From an uncultured Acidobacteriota bacterium (GTDB taxonomy: Bacteria > Acidobacteriota > Thermoanaerobaculia > Gp7-AA8): a DNA stretch of 52,905 nt. This document shows positions 15,424 to 23,686 of the stretch, piece after piece (within the stretch, counting starts at the first letter, position 1; the number at the start of each line of letters is the position of its first letter). The position numbers and the translations under genes are program-made. The notes beneath the pieces are model-generated. The model was not told the DNA's origin. It ran no database searches and saw only the letters and a program-made list of their open reading frames with translations. The DNA lies in NCBI GenBank assembly GCA_937870635.1, contig CALMZP010000030.1, positions 1 to 52,905 of the forward strand. Direction: 5' to 3'.

Positions 15424-17154
15424 ATGCTCGCTGCCGCCATGCTCCTCGCAGCCACTTCCGGCATCACGACGTACTGCAATCCCATCGACCTCGACTATCA
15501 GTACAACTTCGAGCAGCTGAACCAGAACATCTCGTACCGGTCAGGTGCCGATCCGGTCGTTGTCCTGCACGAGGGCGAGTACTACCTTTTCGCGACGATC
15601 GCCGGTGGCTGGTGGCACTCCCCGGATCTCATTCGCTGGAAAAGGATCGTTCCCGAGCGGTGGCCCGTCGAAGACATCGTGGCGCCCGCGGCGATGTCCG
15701 ACGGCGAGACGGTCTATCTCTTCCAGTCGAACTTCACTCACCGCCCGATCTTCTCGACGGACGATCCGAAGAGCGGCCGCCTCGACTTCTTCAACCGATG
15801 GATGCCGGTCATGCCGGGAGCGGAGGGGCCGTGGGATCCCGATCTCTTCCGTGATCCCGATACGGGACGGTGGTTCATGTACTTCGGATCGTCGAATCTC
15901 TATCCGCTCTATGTCATCGAGCTCGATCCGGAGAAACGCCTCGCGTACAAAGGCCGCGCGAGGGATCTCATCCGCCTTCATCCCGGGAAACATGGGTGGG
16001 AGCGATTCGGCCAGGATCATCGCGATGCGCGGACGCCGTTCATCGAAGGCGCGACGATGAACAAGCACAAGGGGAAGTACTACCTGCAGTACGGAGCGCC
16101 GGGGACGGAATACAACGTCTACGCGAACGGCACCTACATCGCCGACGATCCCCTCGGCCCCTTCACCTACGCGCCCAACAACCCCGTTTCGTACAAGCCG
16201 GGCGGATTCATGAACGGCGCGGGACACGGCAACACGTTCCAGGACAAGCACGGAAATTTCTGGAACACGGGCACACCCTGGATCGGCGTGAACTGGAACT
16301 TCGAGCGCCGCATGGCGATGTTCCCCGCCGGATTCGACGGCGACGGACTCCTCTATGCAAATACGCGATTCGGCGACTTTCCGCAGCGGATTCCGACAGG
16401 GAAGTGGACGGACCGCAATGAACTGTTCGCCGGCTGGATGCTGCTGTCGTACCGCGGGAAAGTGAGCGTGTCGTCATCGCATCCTGACTATCCGGCCTGG
16501 AATCTGACGGACGAGGATCCGCGCGGCTTCTGGGTGGCCGCGTCGAACGAGCCTGGCCAGTCGGCCACGATCGATCTCGGCCGCGAATACGACGTGAAGG
16601 CGCTGCAGGTCAATTACGCCGATTACAAATCGGGGATCTTCACGAACGACGAGAAGGTCTACACGCAATTCCGCATTCACGCGTCACGCGACGGAAAGGC
16701 TTGGGAGACCGTCGTGGACCTGACAAGCGAGAAGCGCGATCGTCCCAACGCCTACATCGAGCTGCCGAAGCCGGTCCGCGCGAGGCACATCCGTTACGAA
16801 CACGTGTACGTTGCCGCGCGGAACCTGGCCATCAGCGACATCCGCGTCTTCGGCAACGGCGATGGATCGGCTCCGCGCACGCCGGCGCGGCTCTCGGCCA
16901 GACGCGATTCCGATCCTCGAAACGCGTTCGTCGAGTGGCAGAAGGTTCCCGGCGCGGTCGGCTACAACATCCTCTGGGGCATCGCTCCCGACAAGCTCTA
17001 TCAGACCTATCAGGTGTGGGCGGAGAAGGGCGAGAAGCTCGAGATCCGGGCGATGACGGTGGGGCAGGATTACTGGGTGGCGATCGAGAGCTTCGACGAG
17101 AACGGCGTGTCGAAAGTGAGCGCGCCGGTTGCGGTCACGCGCCCGGGCAGTTGA
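15424..17154 (+). CDS. GH43-like glycosidase with discoidin and FN3 domains
   Basis: This is a predicted secreted glycoside hydrolase of 576 residues. A short hydrophobic leader (LAAAMLLAATSG) precedes a five-bladed propeller domain to about residue 335. Candidate catalytic acids are Asp43 in SGADPVV, the Asp in GPWDPDLF near 138 and the Glu in FIEGATM near 208, which follow the Asp-Asp-Glu pattern of GH43/GH62-type enzymes. Residues of about 345-480 resemble an F5/8 type C (discoidin) sugar-binding domain (QSATIDLGREYDVKALQVNY). The last ~90 residues look like a fibronectin type III domain. The substrate is probably a plant or algal pentose polymer. The signal peptide lacks a basic N-region, so the start could be slightly wrong. 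The 3' end overlaps the convergent sigma-like gene by 20 bases. Confidence 0.83.
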   Translation: MLAAAMLLAATSGITTYCNPIDLDYQYNFEQLNQNISYRSGADPVVVLHEGEYYLFATIAGGWWHSPDLIRWKRIVPERWPVEDIVAPAAMSDGETVYLFQSNFTHRPIFSTDDPKSGRLDFFNRWMPVMPGAEGPWDPDLFRDPDTGRWFMYFGSSNLYPLYVIELDPEKRLAYKGRARDLIRLHPGKHGWERFGQDHRDARTPFIEGATMNKHKGKYYLQYGAPGTEYNVYANGTYIADDPLGPFTYAPNNPVSYKPGGFMNGAGHGNTFQDKHGNFWNTGTPWIGVNWNFERRMAMFPAGFDGDGLLYANTRFGDFPQRIPTGKWTDRNELFAGWMLLSYRGKVSVSSSHPDYPAWNLTDEDPRGFWVAASNEPGQSATIDLGREYDVKALQVNYADYKSGIFTNDEKVYTQFRIHASRDGKAWETVVDLTSEKRDRPNAYIELPKPVRARHIRYEHVYVAARNLAISDIRVFGNGDGSAPRTPARLSARRDSDPRNAFVEWQKVPGAVGYNILWGIAPDKLYQTYQVWAEKGEKLEIRAMTVGQDYWVAIESFDENGVSKVSAPVAVTRPGS

Positions 17155-17554
17155 AGAGCAGGATGATCAGCGCCACGATGATCGCCGCCATGAGCGAGGT
17201 GAAGACGCGCTTCTGCGCACGGCGCGTGGTGATCTCCTGCCACTCGTCGTGGACGCCTTCGCGCAAGGCTTCGTGATCGATTGATCCGGGCGTCTCGTTT
17301 CGGGGCACGGTCTGGCTGATGTTCTTCAGCCACGTGATGACCGGCGCCTGTCCGCGCCACGTTTCCAGCGTCTGCACGGCATCGGCGAACGTCCGGCGGA
17401 CGACGTCGTCGGCGATCGCCTCGTTGCCGCCGGCGCGCGTCAGCGCATACGCATGGAGCGGCTCGAAGTTGGTGTCATAGAACTCCGAGAAGGCCTCCTC
17501 GTCGCCGCGGATGACGCGCGACATGAGGATCCGATCCGATTGCTCGACTTCCAT
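17135..17554 (-). CDS. Sigma-70 region 2 domain with C-terminal membrane anchor, no region 4
   Basis: This 139-residue protein starts with an ECF-type sigma region 2: MSRVIRGDEEAFSEFYD, then AIADDVVRRTFADA and ITWLKNIS, over about residues 10-85. In the usual ECF pattern, ADDVV(Q)xTF and WL..IA contact the RNA polymerase clamp and the -10 element. After about residue 90 there is no helix-turn-helix region 4. A short charged linker leads instead to a single hydrophobic helix (about 116-134, LMAAIIVALIILLF) ending NCPGA. This predicts a sigma-2 domain held on the inner face of the membrane. Its role is unknown; it could be a decoy, an adaptor or a membrane-held regulator. A truncated sigma gene fused by chance to hydrophobic sequence cannot be excluded. 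The start ATG is at 17554, without a clear ribosome site. Confidence 0.72.
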   Translation of the reverse strand: MEVEQSDRILMSRVIRGDEEAFSEFYDTNFEPLHAYALTRAGGNEAIADDVVRRTFADAVQTLETWRGQAPVITWLKNISQTVPRNETPGSIDHEALREGVHDEWQEITTRRAQKRVFTSLMAAIIVALIILLFNCPGA

Positions 17555-17595
17555 GGGCCGATATCTTATGCGGGGAGAGTGGAGCTGAAAACGGT

Positions 17596-17695
17596 GTCAT
17601 CCCGAGCGTAGCGAGGGACCTGGGTGTGATGGGGGCGGGAAGATCATGCTTCGTGCCGCCCGGCCTCCCAGGTCCCTCGCTACGCTCGGGGTGAC
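17596..17695. repeat. Long inverted repeat of the cgagcgtagcgagg type
   Basis: Arms 17596-17624 and 17667-17695 pair at 28 of 29 positions around a 42-nt spacer. The arm core (GAGCGTAGCGAGGGACCT) is a type of intergenic repeat seen in many bacteria. It lies between the lipoprotein gene and the sigma-like gene on the same strand and may end the lipoprotein transcript. Confidence 0.88.
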
Positions 17696-17716
17696 AGTTG
17701 TTGCGACGGTAGCCTC

Positions 17717-17965
17717 CTACGGCGTGGTGGTCGTGGTCGCCGTCGTGCCCGTCGTCACGGTCGTGGCCGTCGTATCCGTCGTCGTGTACGCAGTCGCCGT
17801 TCCGTCGGTCACCGCTTCGGCCTGACGCTCGGCGGCATCCTCACTCATCGTCCCGGACGCTTCACCTGCATCTTCGATGCGTTCTTCCTGCGCATTCTCC
17901 GCGGGGCTGTCGCAGCCGACGAGCAGGAACGAAAGAGCCAGGGCAACAATCAGTCATTTCTTCAT
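17717..17965 (-). pseudogene. Thr-rich lipoprotein with TGA at codon 4
   Basis: On the minus strand an ideal AGGAGG stands eight bases before the ATG at 17965. The reading frame is Met-Lys-Lys-stop, then LIVALALSFLLVGC, a textbook lipoprotein signal with lipobox LVGC and lipidated Cys at codon 18. About 64 residues follow. The first part is acidic (AENAQEERIEDAGEAS) and the second is almost all Thr/Ala/Gly, ending at a TAG at 17717. Total length is 82 codons, all in frame apart from the TGA. A TGG (Trp) mutated to TGA would fit the signal peptide well. A sequencing error or initiation at the next codon (CTG) is also possible. The gene is divergent from the kinase operon, and its product would be a small surface lipoprotein of unknown role. 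Confidence 0.75.
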
Positions 17966-18039
17966 TCGCGAATCCTCCTTTTTCCGGGCCAGTGCAATCG
18001 ATGAGCCCGTGCTGTACGATCATCCTTGTCCAACACACC

Positions 18040-19062
18040 ATGAAAGCCCTCCGCGGTTGCTTTGCCTGGCTCGCTCTCTACGCGCTCGTGTCGCTCGCTC
18101 TGGCTCTGGTCGTCGAGCGCCGGATCGGGGAGCGCGGGCCCGCGCTTGCCGCGGGGCTGGTCGCGGGCGCGATTGCGTCCGTGGCGTTCTCGCATCTCTT
18201 CGGGTTCGCGCGTTCGCTGCGCGAGCTGATGCTGATCCGCAAAGCGCAGGGAGGAGGGGAGCCGGAGGATGGCAAGCTCTTCGCCGCCATCGGACCGATC
18301 ACACCCGATCAGGCCGAAGGGGTACTGCCAGGGACGATTCGATGCGGGACACAGTCGCTGAGGGTCCTCGTCGAACCGGATGTGAAGATCGTCCACAACG
18401 TCGCAAAGGCGGGCGCCGAGGTCTGCGCGATCGGCCGCTATTCGATGGACAGGCGAGCGCTCATCGTCGACCGGAATCTCGAGACTGCAAAGGGTCTGTT
18501 CGCCCGGCGGCTGAACACCATCGGAACCGCGCTCATGAACATGACGGTCATGACGGCGATCGTGGCCACCGCCTTCACCGCCTTCTTTGCGGCGGTTCCA
18601 CTCGATTTCGCGGAGGACCGAATCGCGGACCTTCATCCTTCGTGGCTGGAGATCGGCGCAGAAGACTGGGTGGAAACGAATGTGAGGACGCCGCTGGTCG
18701 CCGCGGGCATGCCGGTGTTCGTGCAGGCGGAGCCGGGCGCGTCGCTCCAGCCCGGCGAAGCGCGCGGTCGCATCCGCAGTGGCGGGAACGAAGCGAACGT
18801 GACCCGCGCCACCGCGGAACGGGCCGGGGAAGAGATAGCGATCCGTTTCTACGACGGCGATCGTCAGGCAGGCGTGATGGTGATCGCGCCGGACGGCGCG
18901 CTCACGGCGCTGAGTCTTTTCATCGAGGATATCGATCCGGAGACAGTGAAGCAGGCCAGGGTCGTCTTGCGGAAATTCGAGGGCGGTCAGGTAGCGGGAC
19001 GGGTGAGCCTCGTGAAGCAGGGCGTCCCCGTCTGTCGGGTGGTTTTTCGCGTGACGACATGA
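18040..19062 (+). CDS. Membrane protein of unknown function, first gene of kinase operon
   Basis: This 340-residue protein has hydrophobic helices at about residues 5-25, 32-52 and 163-185, with soluble stretches between and after them. I recognise no family. The middle part (about 75-160) is a compact domain with GPITPDQAEGVLPGTIRCG and VCAIGRYS. The C-terminal part is a soluble beta-rich region with a VSLVKQGVPVCR tail. I chose the ATG at 18040 (MKALRGC) because the helix begins right after it. Its stop overlaps the start of the first protein kinase gene (ATGA), so the two are translationally coupled. This suggests it is the membrane partner, sensor or target of that kinase (inference). Confidence 0.75.
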   Translation: MKALRGCFAWLALYALVSLALALVVERRIGERGPALAAGLVAGAIASVAFSHLFGFARSLRELMLIRKAQGGGEPEDGKLFAAIGPITPDQAEGVLPGTIRCGTQSLRVLVEPDVKIVHNVAKAGAEVCAIGRYSMDRRALIVDRNLETAKGLFARRLNTIGTALMNMTVMTAIVATAFTAFFAAVPLDFAEDRIADLHPSWLEIGAEDWVETNVRTPLVAAGMPVFVQAEPGASLQPGEARGRIRSGGNEANVTRATAERAGEEIAIRFYDGDRQAGVMVIAPDGALTALSLFIEDIDPETVKQARVVLRKFEGGQVAGRVSLVKQGVPVCRVVFRVTT

Positions 19063-21746
19063 CGGTCAGCGAGGGAACCCGGCTCGGTCCGTACGAGATC
19101 GTCGCGCCGCTCGGTGCGGGCGGCATGGGGGAAGTGTGGCGGGCGAAGGATACGCGTCTCGATCGCGAGGTGGCGGTCAAGATCCTGCCGGCTGGCTTCT
19201 CGGCGGATCCGCAGCTGCGCGCCCGGTTCGACCGCGAAGCCAAGACGATTTCACAGCTGAATCATCCCAATGTCTGCAGCCTCTTCGATGTCGGCCATTC
19301 GGAAGGGGTCGACTTTCTGGTCATGGAGCTTCTCGACGGCGAGTCGCTCGCCGATCGACTGGCGAAGGGCCCGCTTCCGATCGACCTCGTTCTCCGTTAC
19401 GGAATCGAAATCTCCAGCGCCCTCGGAGCCGCCCACCGTCAGGGGATCGTCCATCGCGATCTCAAGCCTGGCAACGTGATGCTCACCCGATCGGGCGCGA
19501 AACTGCTCGACTTCGGCCTCGCCAAATCCGGACCGCTCCTCGTTTCGACACCGGGGATGAGCCGCGTCGCGGACAGTCCGACCGAGCACAGACCGCTCAC
19601 CGAGCAGGGAACTCTCATCGGGACCTTTCAGTACATGGCTCCCGAACAGCTCGAGGGCCAGGAAGCCGACACGCGGACCGACATCTTCGCGTTCGGAGCC
19701 GTGCTTTACGAGATGGCGACCGGGCGAAGGGCGTTTCACGGAAAGAACAAGACCTCGCTCATCGCCTCGATCGTGTCTGGAACCCCGGTGCCTGTCAGCG
19801 AGATCGTGCCGCTGGCTCCTCCTGCGCTCAACCACATCATTCGCAAGTGTCTCGAGAAGGATCCCGACGATCGCTGGCAGAGCATTCACGATGTAGCCGA
19901 CCAGCTGCGCTGGATCGCCGAAGCGGGATCGCGGGCCGGCGAGCCCGCCGCGGTGCTCGCGAAGCGCAAGGTCAGACTTCGGATGGCCTGGCTGCTTCAC
20001 GCCGCCACGGCGATCCTCGCCGTCGCCGCGACCCTCGGCGTGCTGCGGGCGACCAGCGAGCGGCCTCGGATCATCCGGTCGTCGATCATTGCGCCGGAGG
20101 GAACGCGGTTCGACAACCCTTCCGGGCCGTTGGCCCTCTCGCCGGACGGACGCCGGGCGGCGTTTGTCGCGACCCCGGAGGGAGGGAAACCGATGTTATG
20201 GGTGCGGTCCCTCGATGCGTTGACGGCGCAACCGCTCGCCGGGACCGAGGGAGCGACGTTCCCGTTCTGGTCGCCGGACAGCCGGTTCATCGGGTTCTTC
20301 GGTGCGGGGAAGCTGCGCCGGATCGACGCCAATGGCGGTCCGCCGCAGACGATTGCGGACGCCGCCGGTGGCGGCGGCGGTCGCGGCGGAGCGTGGAACC
20401 GGAAGGGGATCATCGTATTCACACCCGGGACCGGCGATGCGCTGTATCGCGTACCGGCCGCGGGCGGCACTCCGGTCGCGGTGACGGAACTCGACACGAA
20501 GCAGGGAGAGACGTCGCATCGCTTCCCGGAGTTTCTCTCCGACGGCGACCGCTTTCTCTACTTCGTCGAAGCGCGCGCGGTTCCCGGCACGTTCGCGAAC
20601 GACTACGCGATCAAGGTGGGCTCGATCAGCTCGAAGCCCGGCGCGCAGGTCCTCCGTTCCCATTCTCCGGTGCTTCATACGAACGGACAGCTCCTGTTCG
20701 TTCGCGACAGGACCCTTCTCGCGCAACCGTTCGATGAAGATGATCTCGCGATGCGCGGAGAGGCCGTTCCGGTCGCTGAGAACGTGGTTGGATCGACTCG
20801 GTATGTAGCGATGTTCAGCGTGTCCGACAACGGCCTCCTCGCCGTTCAGACCGGCAGAGGCGGCGAAATCTCGACTCTCGTCTGGATGGATCGCGACGGC
20901 CGCGATCTGGAAATGGTGGGAAAGCCCGCGGACTATCGCCAGATCGGGTTGTCGCGCGACGGCAGGCGTGTGGCCGCGACCGTCGTCGATCCGAAATCGA
21001 ATTCTTCGGACATCTGGGTACTCGACATGGATCGGGGAACCGCAACCCGGCTCACCTTCGATCCGCAGGATGACTTCGCACCGGTATGGTCCGTGGACGA
21101 TCGGCGCGTCTACTTCACGGGAGCTCGGCAGGGGCGGGGCGACGTTTTCTGGAAATCGAGCTCCGGCACCGGCGCGGAGGAGCTTCTCGTCGGCGACGCC
21201 GAATGGACGATGCTGACCAGCTTCTCCGCGGATGGAAAACTGGCCGCGATGATGACGAACAACATCGGCCGGAAGACCGCTTGGGACATCTGGCTTCGTG
21301 ACTCTGCCACCGGCAAGGGGCGGGTCATCCTCGAGACGCCCTTTTCCGAAAATTCGGCACAGCTGTCCCGCGACGGACGATGGCTGGCTTACCACTCCGA
21401 CGAATCGGGACGGAGTGAGGTTTTCGTCATCTCGCTCGAGGATGATGGCGGGAAGTGGCAGATCTCGACCGATGGCGGCAGCCGCCCGCTCTGGAGCCGC
21501 GGCGACCGCGAGATCGTCTTTCTGGGCAGCGATGGGAAGCTGATGGTCGTAGACGTGACGCATTCGCCGCGGTTCACCGCGGGCGTGCCTCGAGTGCTGG
21601 TCGATCCGCGACTTCGTTCTTTACCGGGAATGCTCTGGGCCATCTCCAGCGACGGTCAGCGCATCCTGGTCAACCGCGACATCGAGGATCGCACTGCCTC
21701 GCCGTACTCACTCGTTCAGAACTGGACTGAAGGTCTCGCAAACTGA
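19059..21746 (+). CDS. Transmembrane Ser/Thr protein kinase with C-terminal beta-propeller
   Basis: This is an 895-residue PknB-type kinase. The kinase domain (about 11-285) has the glycine loop GAGGMGEVW, Lys41 in VAVKIL, HRDLKPGN from residue 132, DFG at 151, and APEQ in QYMAPEQL. It looks active. One transmembrane helix follows at about 309-329. The remaining ~560 residues outside the membrane are a beta-propeller of WD40-like/TolB repeats (LSPDGRRAAF, WSPDSRFIGF, LSRDGRRVAA, WSVDDRRVYF, LSRDGRWLAY). This kinase-TM-propeller layout is common in Acidobacteriota and related soil phyla. The propeller probably senses a ligand or a protein. It overlaps its neighbours on both sides (ATGA and TGATG), forming a coupled three-gene operon. 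Confidence 0.93.
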   Translation: MTVSEGTRLGPYEIVAPLGAGGMGEVWRAKDTRLDREVAVKILPAGFSADPQLRARFDREAKTISQLNHPNVCSLFDVGHSEGVDFLVMELLDGESLADRLAKGPLPIDLVLRYGIEISSALGAAHRQGIVHRDLKPGNVMLTRSGAKLLDFGLAKSGPLLVSTPGMSRVADSPTEHRPLTEQGTLIGTFQYMAPEQLEGQEADTRTDIFAFGAVLYEMATGRRAFHGKNKTSLIASIVSGTPVPVSEIVPLAPPALNHIIRKCLEKDPDDRWQSIHDVADQLRWIAEAGSRAGEPAAVLAKRKVRLRMAWLLHAATAILAVAATLGVLRATSERPRIIRSSIIAPEGTRFDNPSGPLALSPDGRRAAFVATPEGGKPMLWVRSLDALTAQPLAGTEGATFPFWSPDSRFIGFFGAGKLRRIDANGGPPQTIADAAGGGGGRGGAWNRKGIIVFTPGTGDALYRVPAAGGTPVAVTELDTKQGETSHRFPEFLSDGDRFLYFVEARAVPGTFANDYAIKVGSISSKPGAQVLRSHSPVLHTNGQLLFVRDRTLLAQPFDEDDLAMRGEAVPVAENVVGSTRYVAMFSVSDNGLLAVQTGRGGEISTLVWMDRDGRDLEMVGKPADYRQIGLSRDGRRVAATVVDPKSNSSDIWVLDMDRGTATRLTFDPQDDFAPVWSVDDRRVYFTGARQGRGDVFWKSSSGTGAEELLVGDAEWTMLTSFSADGKLAAMMTNNIGRKTAWDIWLRDSATGKGRVILETPFSENSAQLSRDGRWLAYHSDESGRSEVFVISLEDDGGKWQISTDGGSRPLWSRGDREIVFLGSDGKLMVVDVTHSPRFTAGVPRVLVDPRLRSLPGMLWAISSDGQRILVNRDIEDRTASPYSLVQNWTEGLAN

Positions 21747-23686
21747 TGTTCGACGCCGGTGCCCGTTTCGCAATCAACCGCAAACTCGGATCAGGGTCGT
21801 TCGGTGTCGTTTACGACGCCATCGATCATTACCGCAACCGTCCCGTGGCTCTCAAGGTCCTCGAGCGCGCCGCGCCGGAGACGGTCACGCGCTTCAAGCG
21901 TGAGTTTCGATACCTGGCCGAGTTGCGCCACCCGAACCTCGCCAGCATGTACGAGATGCTCGTGCTCAACGAGAAGTGGGTTCTCTCGATGGAGCTCGTG
22001 AGGGGATCCGAGCTTCTCGAGTATCTCGCGTTCACGGAGTTGCAGAACTCCTTTCACGCGGACGTTGGAGCGCGGGCGACCTCGCCCGCGTCTTCCAGCC
22101 CCGCCGCACTCAGTCCGGCGTACGTCGAGAACGTGCGCGAGACGTTCCGTCAGCTGGCAGTCGCGGTGGCTGTCCTGCACGCGCGCGACATCGTGCATCG
22201 GGACATCAAGCCGTCCAACATCATGATCACGGCCGAGGGGCGGGTGGTCCTTCTCGACTTCGGCCTGATCGTCGAAGTCGAGCTCGATGAGACGATCGAC
22301 CGCCGCAAAGTCGTCGGTACGCCGGGGTACATGAGTCCGGAGCAGATGATGGCCGAGATGCCGACCACGTCCAGCGACTGGTACAGCGTCGGCGTCCTTC
22401 TCTATCAGGCTCTCACCGGCCAGATGCCGCACATGGCGCAGAACGCCATGGAGATGATGGAGAAGATGATGAAGGAGGACGTCGTTCCGGCGTCCGAGAT
22501 CGTCGGCGGCGTTCCGAAGGATCTCTCCGATCTCGCTTCGAACCTCCTCAATCGCAAGCCCGATGCGCGCGCCGGAGACATCGAGATTCTACAGATGCTC
22601 GGCGTCACCGCCTTCGACCCGATTCGCGGAGTGCGCATGCGCGACCGCAACGTCGACCTCCTCGGGCGCACCGACGAAATGCGCACCCTCTTCCATGACG
22701 TCACCACGCTGGAAACCGGCAGCCCGCGCCTCGTCCTCGTTCCCGGCGCGCCCGGCGTCGGAAAGACGGCGCTCATCGACAGTCTCCTCAACCGCGTCCG
22801 CGCCGAGACCGACTCACTGATCCTCGGCGGCCGCTGTCACGCGTGGGAATCGGTGCCTTTCAACGCGGTCGACGCGCTCGTCGATTCACTCGCGCGGGTC
22901 ATCCGGCGTGAACGCCCCGAGGCTGTCGACGATGTGATGGGCCGCGCCGTGGCCGTCACCCGGCTTTTCCCTGCGCTCGTATACGACGCCGCGTTCGCTC
23001 CGGGAGAGGAGACGATCGTCGTGCCCGTGTCCGGCGATAAGCTGACGCGCCGTGCGGCGGGGGAGCTGGCTTCGATTCTGTTCGCGACGGCCGCAGGCCG
23101 TCCTGTCGTGATGATGCTCGACGATGCCCAGTGGGGCGACTATCAGAGCGCGCTCTTCCTGCAACGGATCTTCGCCGCCGCGTCATCGCAGCGCCTGGTG
23201 CTCATTGCCGCGTACCGGGAGGAAGACTGGAAGACGAGCCTGCTGCTGCAGACCCTGGCGAATGGCAACCCGGCGCCGCTGATGCGCCGCGTCGAGGAAC
23301 TGTCGCTGCCGGCGACGATGAAACTGGTCGAACGGCTGCTGCCGGGGATTGCACGCGATGAAGCGGAGAAGATCGCCGCGGAATCGGGTGGAAACGCCGA
23401 ATTGGCGGCGATGATCGCGGCGGCCCCCGGACACACGCTCGCGGACGCCATTCGCGTGCGGCTGGAGAGGTTGTCCGCTCCGGCGCGCAGGATCATTGCC
23501 CTGCTCCTTTCATCGACCGGGCCGATTCCGGAGATGGAGATCGAGGAGCGCCTCGAGCTGATCGAGACCGACGAGCCGCTGCGCACGCTGAGCCGCGAGC
23601 GCCTCATCCGGGTGCGCAGGACGGGCGACCTGCACGAGGTCGATCTGTATCATCCGCGGATGCGGGATGGCCTGCGCGGAAGGTGA
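21746..23686 (+). CDS. Ser/Thr protein kinase fused to a STAND-type ATPase, probably truncated
   Basis: This 646-residue protein has a kinase domain (about 1-290) with GSGSFGVVYD, VALKVL, HRDIKPSN and DFG (LLDFGLI), then an ATPase module. The P-loop is GAPGVGKTAL from residue 334 and Walker B is VVMMLDDAQWGD near 454. Such kinase-ATPase regulators (PknK-like) usually run for several hundred more residues, often with TPR-type repeats. This one stops just after DLYHPRMRDGLR, where relatives continue with the helical sensor part. The stop is four bases before a heptamer palindrome, so the repeat may mark where the 3' end was lost. A 25-bp GC-rich repeat is read in frame within the kinase domain, at about residues 107-115. 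It is coupled to the previous kinase by a TGATG overlap. Confidence 0.88.
   Translation: MFDAGARFAINRKLGSGSFGVVYDAIDHYRNRPVALKVLERAAPETVTRFKREFRYLAELRHPNLASMYEMLVLNEKWVLSMELVRGSELLEYLAFTELQNSFHADVGARATSPASSSPAALSPAYVENVRETFRQLAVAVAVLHARDIVHRDIKPSNIMITAEGRVVLLDFGLIVEVELDETIDRRKVVGTPGYMSPEQMMAEMPTTSSDWYSVGVLLYQALTGQMPHMAQNAMEMMEKMMKEDVVPASEIVGGVPKDLSDLASNLLNRKPDARAGDIEILQMLGVTAFDPIRGVRMRDRNVDLLGRTDEMRTLFHDVTTLETGSPRLVLVPGAPGVGKTALIDSLLNRVRAETDSLILGGRCHAWESVPFNAVDALVDSLARVIRRERPEAVDDVMGRAVAVTRLFPALVYDAAFAPGEETIVVPVSGDKLTRRAAGELASILFATAAGRPVVMMLDDAQWGDYQSALFLQRIFAAASSQRLVLIAAYREEDWKTSLLLQTLANGNPAPLMRRVEELSLPATMKLVERLLPGIARDEAEKIAAESGGNAELAAMIAAAPGHTLADAIRVRLERLSAPARRIIALLLSSTGPIPEMEIEERLELIETDEPLRTLSRERLIRVRRTGDLHEVDLYHPRMRDGLRGR
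22066..22090. repeat. Intragenic 25-bp GC repeat, single arm, inside kinase gene
   Basis: These 25 bases, ending in GGGCGACCTCGCCCGCG, are identical to the left arm of the inverted repeat inside the ABC-F gene (25777-25801). Here they are read as GARATSPA, between the N-lobe and the catalytic loop of the kinase, in a Ser/Ala-rich insertion that other kinases lack. Confidence 0.9.

Follow-up and report, generated by a model that had tools for sequence, protein, structure and literature searches.

An open reading frame that joins ECF sigma region 2 to an anti-sigma-derived membrane helix in an acidobacterial genome: probably the remnant of a collapsed sigma/FecR operon

Organization of the locus

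The window, that is, the whole stretch of 52,905 nucleotides (52.9 kb) that was analysed, contained on its minus strand an open reading frame (ORF) that began with an ATG at 17554, ended at 17135 and comprised 139 codons in the ORF listing. A stop was present in the plus strand across the same interval. Residues 4-80 (17315..17545, minus strand) corresponded to region 2 of an ECF sigma factor, in which regions 2.1-2.3 were kept and region 2.4 was truncated after TWL (residue 76). At the joint, approximately residues 77-90 (17285..17326), the match to the sigma HMM stopped (17315) and the match to an HMM of FecR-like partners started (17284 to 17305) in the same frame. Residues 91-132 (17159..17284) resembled the juxtamembrane segment and membrane helix of a FecR-like anti-sigma factor, and the helix itself, residues 117-135 (17150..17206), was preceded by the basic sequence RRAQKR and followed by few residues. 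The GC3 was 0.88 in both halves of the ORF, as compared with 0.78-0.84 in the neighbouring genes and 0.74-0.81 in the other measurable ECF genes of the genome. On the strength of the ORF call, the sigma and partner matches, the common GC3 and the single frame, the whole ORF (17135..17554) was annotated as a chimera of sigma region 2 and an anti-sigma membrane anchor.

An inverted repeat (17595..17696) with 48-nt arms and a 6-nt loop began 41 bp upstream of the start codon of the chimera. The 28-base core of this palindrome had 35 exact copies in the genome and its reversed control had 0; the element is dispersed and MITE/REP-like, with several copies at contig ends. No match to a sigma-70-type promoter, a pattern from which acidobacterial promoters may differ, was found upstream of the chimera, and no clear ribosome-binding site was found before it.

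On the other side, a gene with GH43 and F5/8 type C domains (15424-17154) was convergent with the chimera and overlapped it by 20 bp. None of the family's 17 other genomes gave a match to it at E 1e-20, so an empty site could not be shown by means of this gene. The neighbourhood shared with the intact operons of relatives was limited to the chimera itself and one distant match elsewhere in the window. Two adjoining serine/threonine kinase genes occupied 17877-23686 on the strand opposite the chimera; PD40 repeats were encoded in one of them and an AAA_16 domain in the other.

The sigma-derived part

The initial annotation had described a 139-residue ORF with an ECF-like region 2, no region 4 and a single C-terminal membrane helix, and all three features were borne out. 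The ORF was matched by NCBIfam ECF models (E 2e-11), by ECF sigma factors in the PDB (E 1.5e-5) and by Pfam Sigma70_r2, the last at E 9e-4 and under the curated cut-off. The HMM of its sigma group gave 68.5 bits at 17530-17315, covering HMM positions 2-73 of 203. An AlphaFold model of the ORF, with 16 relatives in the alignment, had a mean pLDDT of 83.8 and helices at residues 2-15, 19-40, 45-65, 72-80 and 94-134, the last of which was helical in both models. The best structural matches in the PDB were ECF region 2 domains, with sigmaE (1or7, 4lup) first, at 1.9 Å rmsd over 75-81 columns, with a Foldseek E of only about 0.03.

The region was nonetheless incomplete and altered. Region 2.4, the -10 recognition helix, was cut short; sequence similarity stopped at residue 76-80 and the fourth helix of the model spanned only 72-80. 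Two residues that were invariant across 30 relatives in the alignment had been replaced, R35 by Ala and Q53 by Arg. The latter lies in the core-binding region, and in region 2.2 of the chimera RR takes the place of Gln and a small residue. Altogether, 11 of the 28 highly conserved positions of region 2 were changed, as compared with 0-8 in the relatives. In the region 2 tree, the branch of the chimera (1.1) was the longest of its clade, the median end branch over the tree being 0.39, although nearby forks were weakly supported. The conserved core residues were kept or conservatively replaced. Core positions were less changed than polar ones, a contrast that reached p 0.015 with the joint included and p 0.14 when only the sequence before the joint was counted.

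Region 4, which recognizes the -35 element, left no remnant that the sigma HMM could detect in six frames of the 52.9-kb window. A frameshifted region 4 downstream was excluded, as there was no significant sigma HMM match beyond region 2 in any of the six frames. Judged from its sequence, the chimera is unlikely to have sigma-factor activity because it lacks region 4 and most of region 2.4, has other residues in place of R35 and Q53 and differs at 11 of 28 conserved positions. The initial annotation had also proposed that the protein might hold RNA polymerase near the membrane, a role that is disfavoured by the replacement of the core-binding Gln of region 2.2, present in 30 of 30 relatives, with Arg.

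The altered region 2.2, with RR in place of Gln and a small residue, and the two protein kinase genes upstream on the other strand would fit an atypical sigma factor that is switched by these kinases in the manner of EcfP. EcfP is a complete ECF sigma factor, whereas the chimera has no region 4. Moreover, the sigma group to which the chimera belongs is FecR-linked, T55 is common among the relatives and is no gained phosphosite, and neither kinase gene adjoins the chimera or shares its strand. Although the altered region 2.2 of EcfP is made active through phosphorylation (PMC8999054), such a switch is scarcely credible for the chimera.

Origin of the C-terminal part

The partner profile was an HMM of 86 positions built from the FecR-like partners of the region 2 relatives. 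Residues 91-132 scored 24.6 bits against it, a modest margin in that another class of ECF-associated membrane partners reached 22.5 bits on the same HMM, so the assignment to FecR rather than to some other ECF anti-sigma factor leans partly on the group to which region 2 belongs. None of 5000 shuffles, each of which preserved the composition of the pre-helix part and that of the helix part, reached this score, the best being 15.7 bits, and the pre-helix part alone gave 18.4 bits against a shuffle maximum of 13.4. In a ranking of 195 natural membrane-helix fragments, taken from the window and the retrieved loci, the C-terminal piece came immediately after the true FecR partners. Across all six frames of the window, the best match to the full FecR-partner HMM was again the C-terminus of the chimera, in the frame of the sigma part (E 1e-4). 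The string VHDEWQE was common to the chimera and one of the partners (L029). The piece thus had both the juxtamembrane segment and the single membrane helix of the FecR type. The mean hydropathy of the helix over 19 residues was 2.61, above that of every partner (1.61-2.59).

Two other origins were considered for the C-terminus. A diverged sigma end was rejected at -0.9 bits on the sigma HMM. Derivation from the other class of ECF-linked membrane partners in the family was less likely, the profile of that class giving 5.3 bits as compared with 24.6 for the FecR partners. Six loci carried this second class of single-helix membrane proteins (PxPERG, VWxRLRWKL, ERR, then the helix), which are probably anti-sigma factors themselves.

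The FecR-derived part was also incomplete. The match began at position 34 of the 86 in the partner HMM, and the N-terminal cytoplasmic sigma-binding motif (LLRLAG-type) was absent from the chimera. The full FecR-partner HMM detected no trace of a periplasmic FecR domain in six frames of the 52.9-kb window. Moreover, the window genome had no intact ECF-coupled FecR pair; it contained only two FecR matches, both with signal-peptide-like N-termini, in other contexts and neither coupled to an ECF gene.

These results bear on the suggestion that the chimera is a decoy that titrates the anti-sigma factor of the system from which it came. A region 2 at the membrane would be placed near such an anti-sigma factor. 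However, neither FecR match of the genome is ECF-coupled, the C-terminus is itself a piece of an anti-sigma factor, and the chimera is without region 4, the main site at which FecR binds sigma (PMC9249621). A decoy for the partner, which had been among the initial proposals, is therefore disfavoured and highly improbable.

Relatives and the search for the same layout

The search covered 18 genomes of the family, 149 of the class and 396 of the phylum, with the window genome the sole one of its genus in the set. No other gene with the layout of region 2 followed by a helix was found among these genomes or in GTDB 220 scans, and a single-protein query scan of genome contigs gave no match. Strong region 2 matches nearly all stopped near residue 80, and the few longer ones sat in full-length ECF frames. 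The window aside, the only frame shorter than 189 aa among the strong matches was that of locus L003 (163 aa). If the helix were a conserved family feature, homologues should carry it; none did in any collection searched.

Instead, 29 of the 30 best region 2 relatives in the class set were full-length ECF sigma factors with a nearby gene for a FecR-type membrane partner, the thirtieth being the broken locus L003. In the partners, a short cytoplasmic segment (LLRLAGPRPxVP, then VxxxW, then RRRR) was accompanied by a single membrane helix and by an extracytoplasmic part that resembled FecR. Wider searches later yielded a set of 40 loci, in which a FecR partner was present at all members of the sigma group that had enough flanking sequence. 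Within the family, three genomes had intact sigma/FecR pairs.

L003, which is the same locus as L085 (JADGNY010000211.1; positions 1477-2100 of L003; Thermoanaerobaculia, same family), was a second collapsed sigma/FecR operon. Its sigma part stops at TWL and is followed, out of frame, by the periplasmic FecR domain; the anti-sigma helix is lost. The locus is on a 6-kb contig, where an assembly error is possible.

In eight Poribacteria loci, a single frame of approximately 270-1000 aa encoded an ECF sigma factor with both region 2 and region 4, together with a stretch resembling a membrane helix that lay some 210 residues beyond the beginning of region 2; these are probably natural membrane fusions.

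An assembly artefact was also considered for the chimera, in which a metagenome assembler would have mis-joined two pieces of an operon that was repeated or had low coverage. The assembly is fragmented, with 171 contigs, and the analysis covered a single copy of the locus. However, the joint is in frame, with continuous GC3 across it, both parts have diverged from every relative, and the joint lies inside a 52.9-kb contig in a genome that has no intact copy of the operon to mis-join. A mis-assembly is accordingly very unlikely.

Remnant or maintained gene

We consider that the chimera is probably the remnant of an internal deletion in an operon that encoded an ECF sigma factor and its FecR anti-sigma factor, degenerate and with little or no function. 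Several observations led us to favour this deletion, 1) the intact relatives are sigma and FecR pairs and the C-terminus matches the FecR partner, 2) the genome has no intact ECF-coupled FecR pair, 3) the operon in L003/L085, of the same type, also collapsed after TWL, and 4) the longest region 2 branch and the 11 of 28 changed positions point to a degenerate remnant. Of the three options in the initial annotation, a decayed gene fits best, while those of holding RNA polymerase and of an anti-sigma decoy have been weakened.

We infer that the deletion ran from a point after codon 76-80 of the sigma gene to a point immediately ahead of the juxtamembrane segment in the FecR gene, and that all sequence beyond the FecR helix was also lost. 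The sigma factor would in this way have lost region 4 together with most of region 2.4, and the anti-sigma factor its N-terminal motif and its entire periplasmic FecR domain. The product, if translated, would be tail-anchored, its N-terminus facing the cytoplasm. Variants of IutY that have about 50 or fewer periplasmic residues become direct substrates of the site-2 protease RseP (PMC5411451), and on this analogy RseP would be expected to cut the product directly and free a soluble region 2 fragment. The freed fragment should not drive transcription, since it would have no reader of the -35 element, a truncated reader of the -10 element and an altered core-binding surface. The frame may still be open because the remnant is recent or weakly constrained.

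The open frame was examined by neutral simulations with substitutions only. At 0.1 substitutions per site, no stop appeared with a probability of 0.39 and the mean GC3 was 0.84. With so large a stop-free probability under neutral decay, the intact frame decides little, and a maintained gene and a recent remnant could not be told apart by the simulations. A dead gene of recent origin is compatible with the data; against it stand the open frame, the GC3 and the hydrophobic helix, and the chimera is most likely a remnant.

The same three properties, an intact frame, a GC3 of 0.88 in both halves and a strong helix, are compatible with a maintained gene product. Such a product could be a neofunctionalised, tail-anchored region 2 protein on the former anti-sigma helix that acts as a decoy, or as a protease-released fragment that competes with sigma factors or binds a new partner. 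The predicted region 2 fold is confident, and the core residues appear to be kept while polar contact residues change, which would suit this proposal. However, the contrast between core and polar positions was not significant before the joint (p 0.14), the gene is found in one genome only, Q53, present in 30 of 30 relatives, is replaced by Arg and R35 is lost, and the dispersed repeat rather than a sigma-70-type promoter match or a clear ribosome-binding site precedes the start codon. A maintained protein of this kind seems unlikely to us. That the collapsed operon now serves as one maintained gene, its tail-anchored region 2 having given up the promotion of transcription for a new role, for example as a fragment that competes with other sigma factors, or binds their regulators, once released at the membrane by the site-2 protease, is a proposal to which we would give rather little weight. 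If maintained, the chimera would amount to a protein that carries a sigma domain at the membrane without being a sigma factor.

Comparison with known systems

The closest systems are the ECF/FecR pairs of the Acidobacteriota (L002/L084, L004, L005, L029/L091 and others), whose region 2 is 35-44% identical to that of the chimera and whose partners have a similar juxtamembrane segment and helix. These pairs are encoded by two genes and include both a region 4 and, in the periplasm, a FecR domain of approximately 217-274 residues, while the chimera is a single ORF that lacks both.

In the split sigma factor SigO/RsoA of Bacillus subtilis, RsoA is region 2-like and, as in the chimera, has no region 4 of its own. 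However, RsoA has no membrane helix, and a separate protein supplies region 4, a counterpart of which was not identified for the chimera.

IutY of Pseudomonas putida, an ECF243 fusion (PMC5411451, PMC8999054, PMC9249621), resembles the chimera in that an ECF part, one membrane helix and anti-sigma-derived sequence are combined in a single polypeptide. IutY works as a switch and contains region 2, region 4 and an anti-sigma domain in the periplasm, whereas the chimera retains region 2 alone and lacks a periplasmic domain. A further trait of the IutY-like class is that Prc and RseP set the cytoplasmic part free. Similarly, ECF48, ECF52 and ECF53 of Actinobacteria (PMC8999054) combine sigma with one or more C-terminal membrane helices, but these are presented as complete sigma factors that carry zinc-finger anti-sigma domains, and the chimera has neither region 4 nor an anti-sigma domain. 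Both IutY and the ECF48/ECF52/ECF53 fusions are treated as working sigma factors (PMC8999054). The initial statement that no described family with this layout was known held in part; neither a helix-anchored form with region 2 alone nor relevant work on region 2-only sigma factors was found in the part of the literature that was searched, but membrane fusions of sigma and anti-sigma factors have been described (IutY, ECF48/52/53; PMC8999054). Fusions of the IutY type show that a two-gene switch can merge into one membrane protein.

The collapsed operon L003/L085 resembles the chimera in that a deletion reaching into the FecR gene has cut the sigma gene off at TWL. It differs in its out-of-frame join and in having retained the periplasmic FecR domain but lost the anti-sigma helix. 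Together, the two loci suggest that the operon has repeatedly collapsed and been lost in one acidobacterial family, and that one deletion step can yield a plausible membrane-tethered sigma fragment. The reading of region 2 and a helix as a new family does not stand, the chimera being probably a degenerate deletion product of a single genome. The main lesson is one of caution, that an ORF with region 2 and a membrane helix can be a deletion chimera and not a new family.
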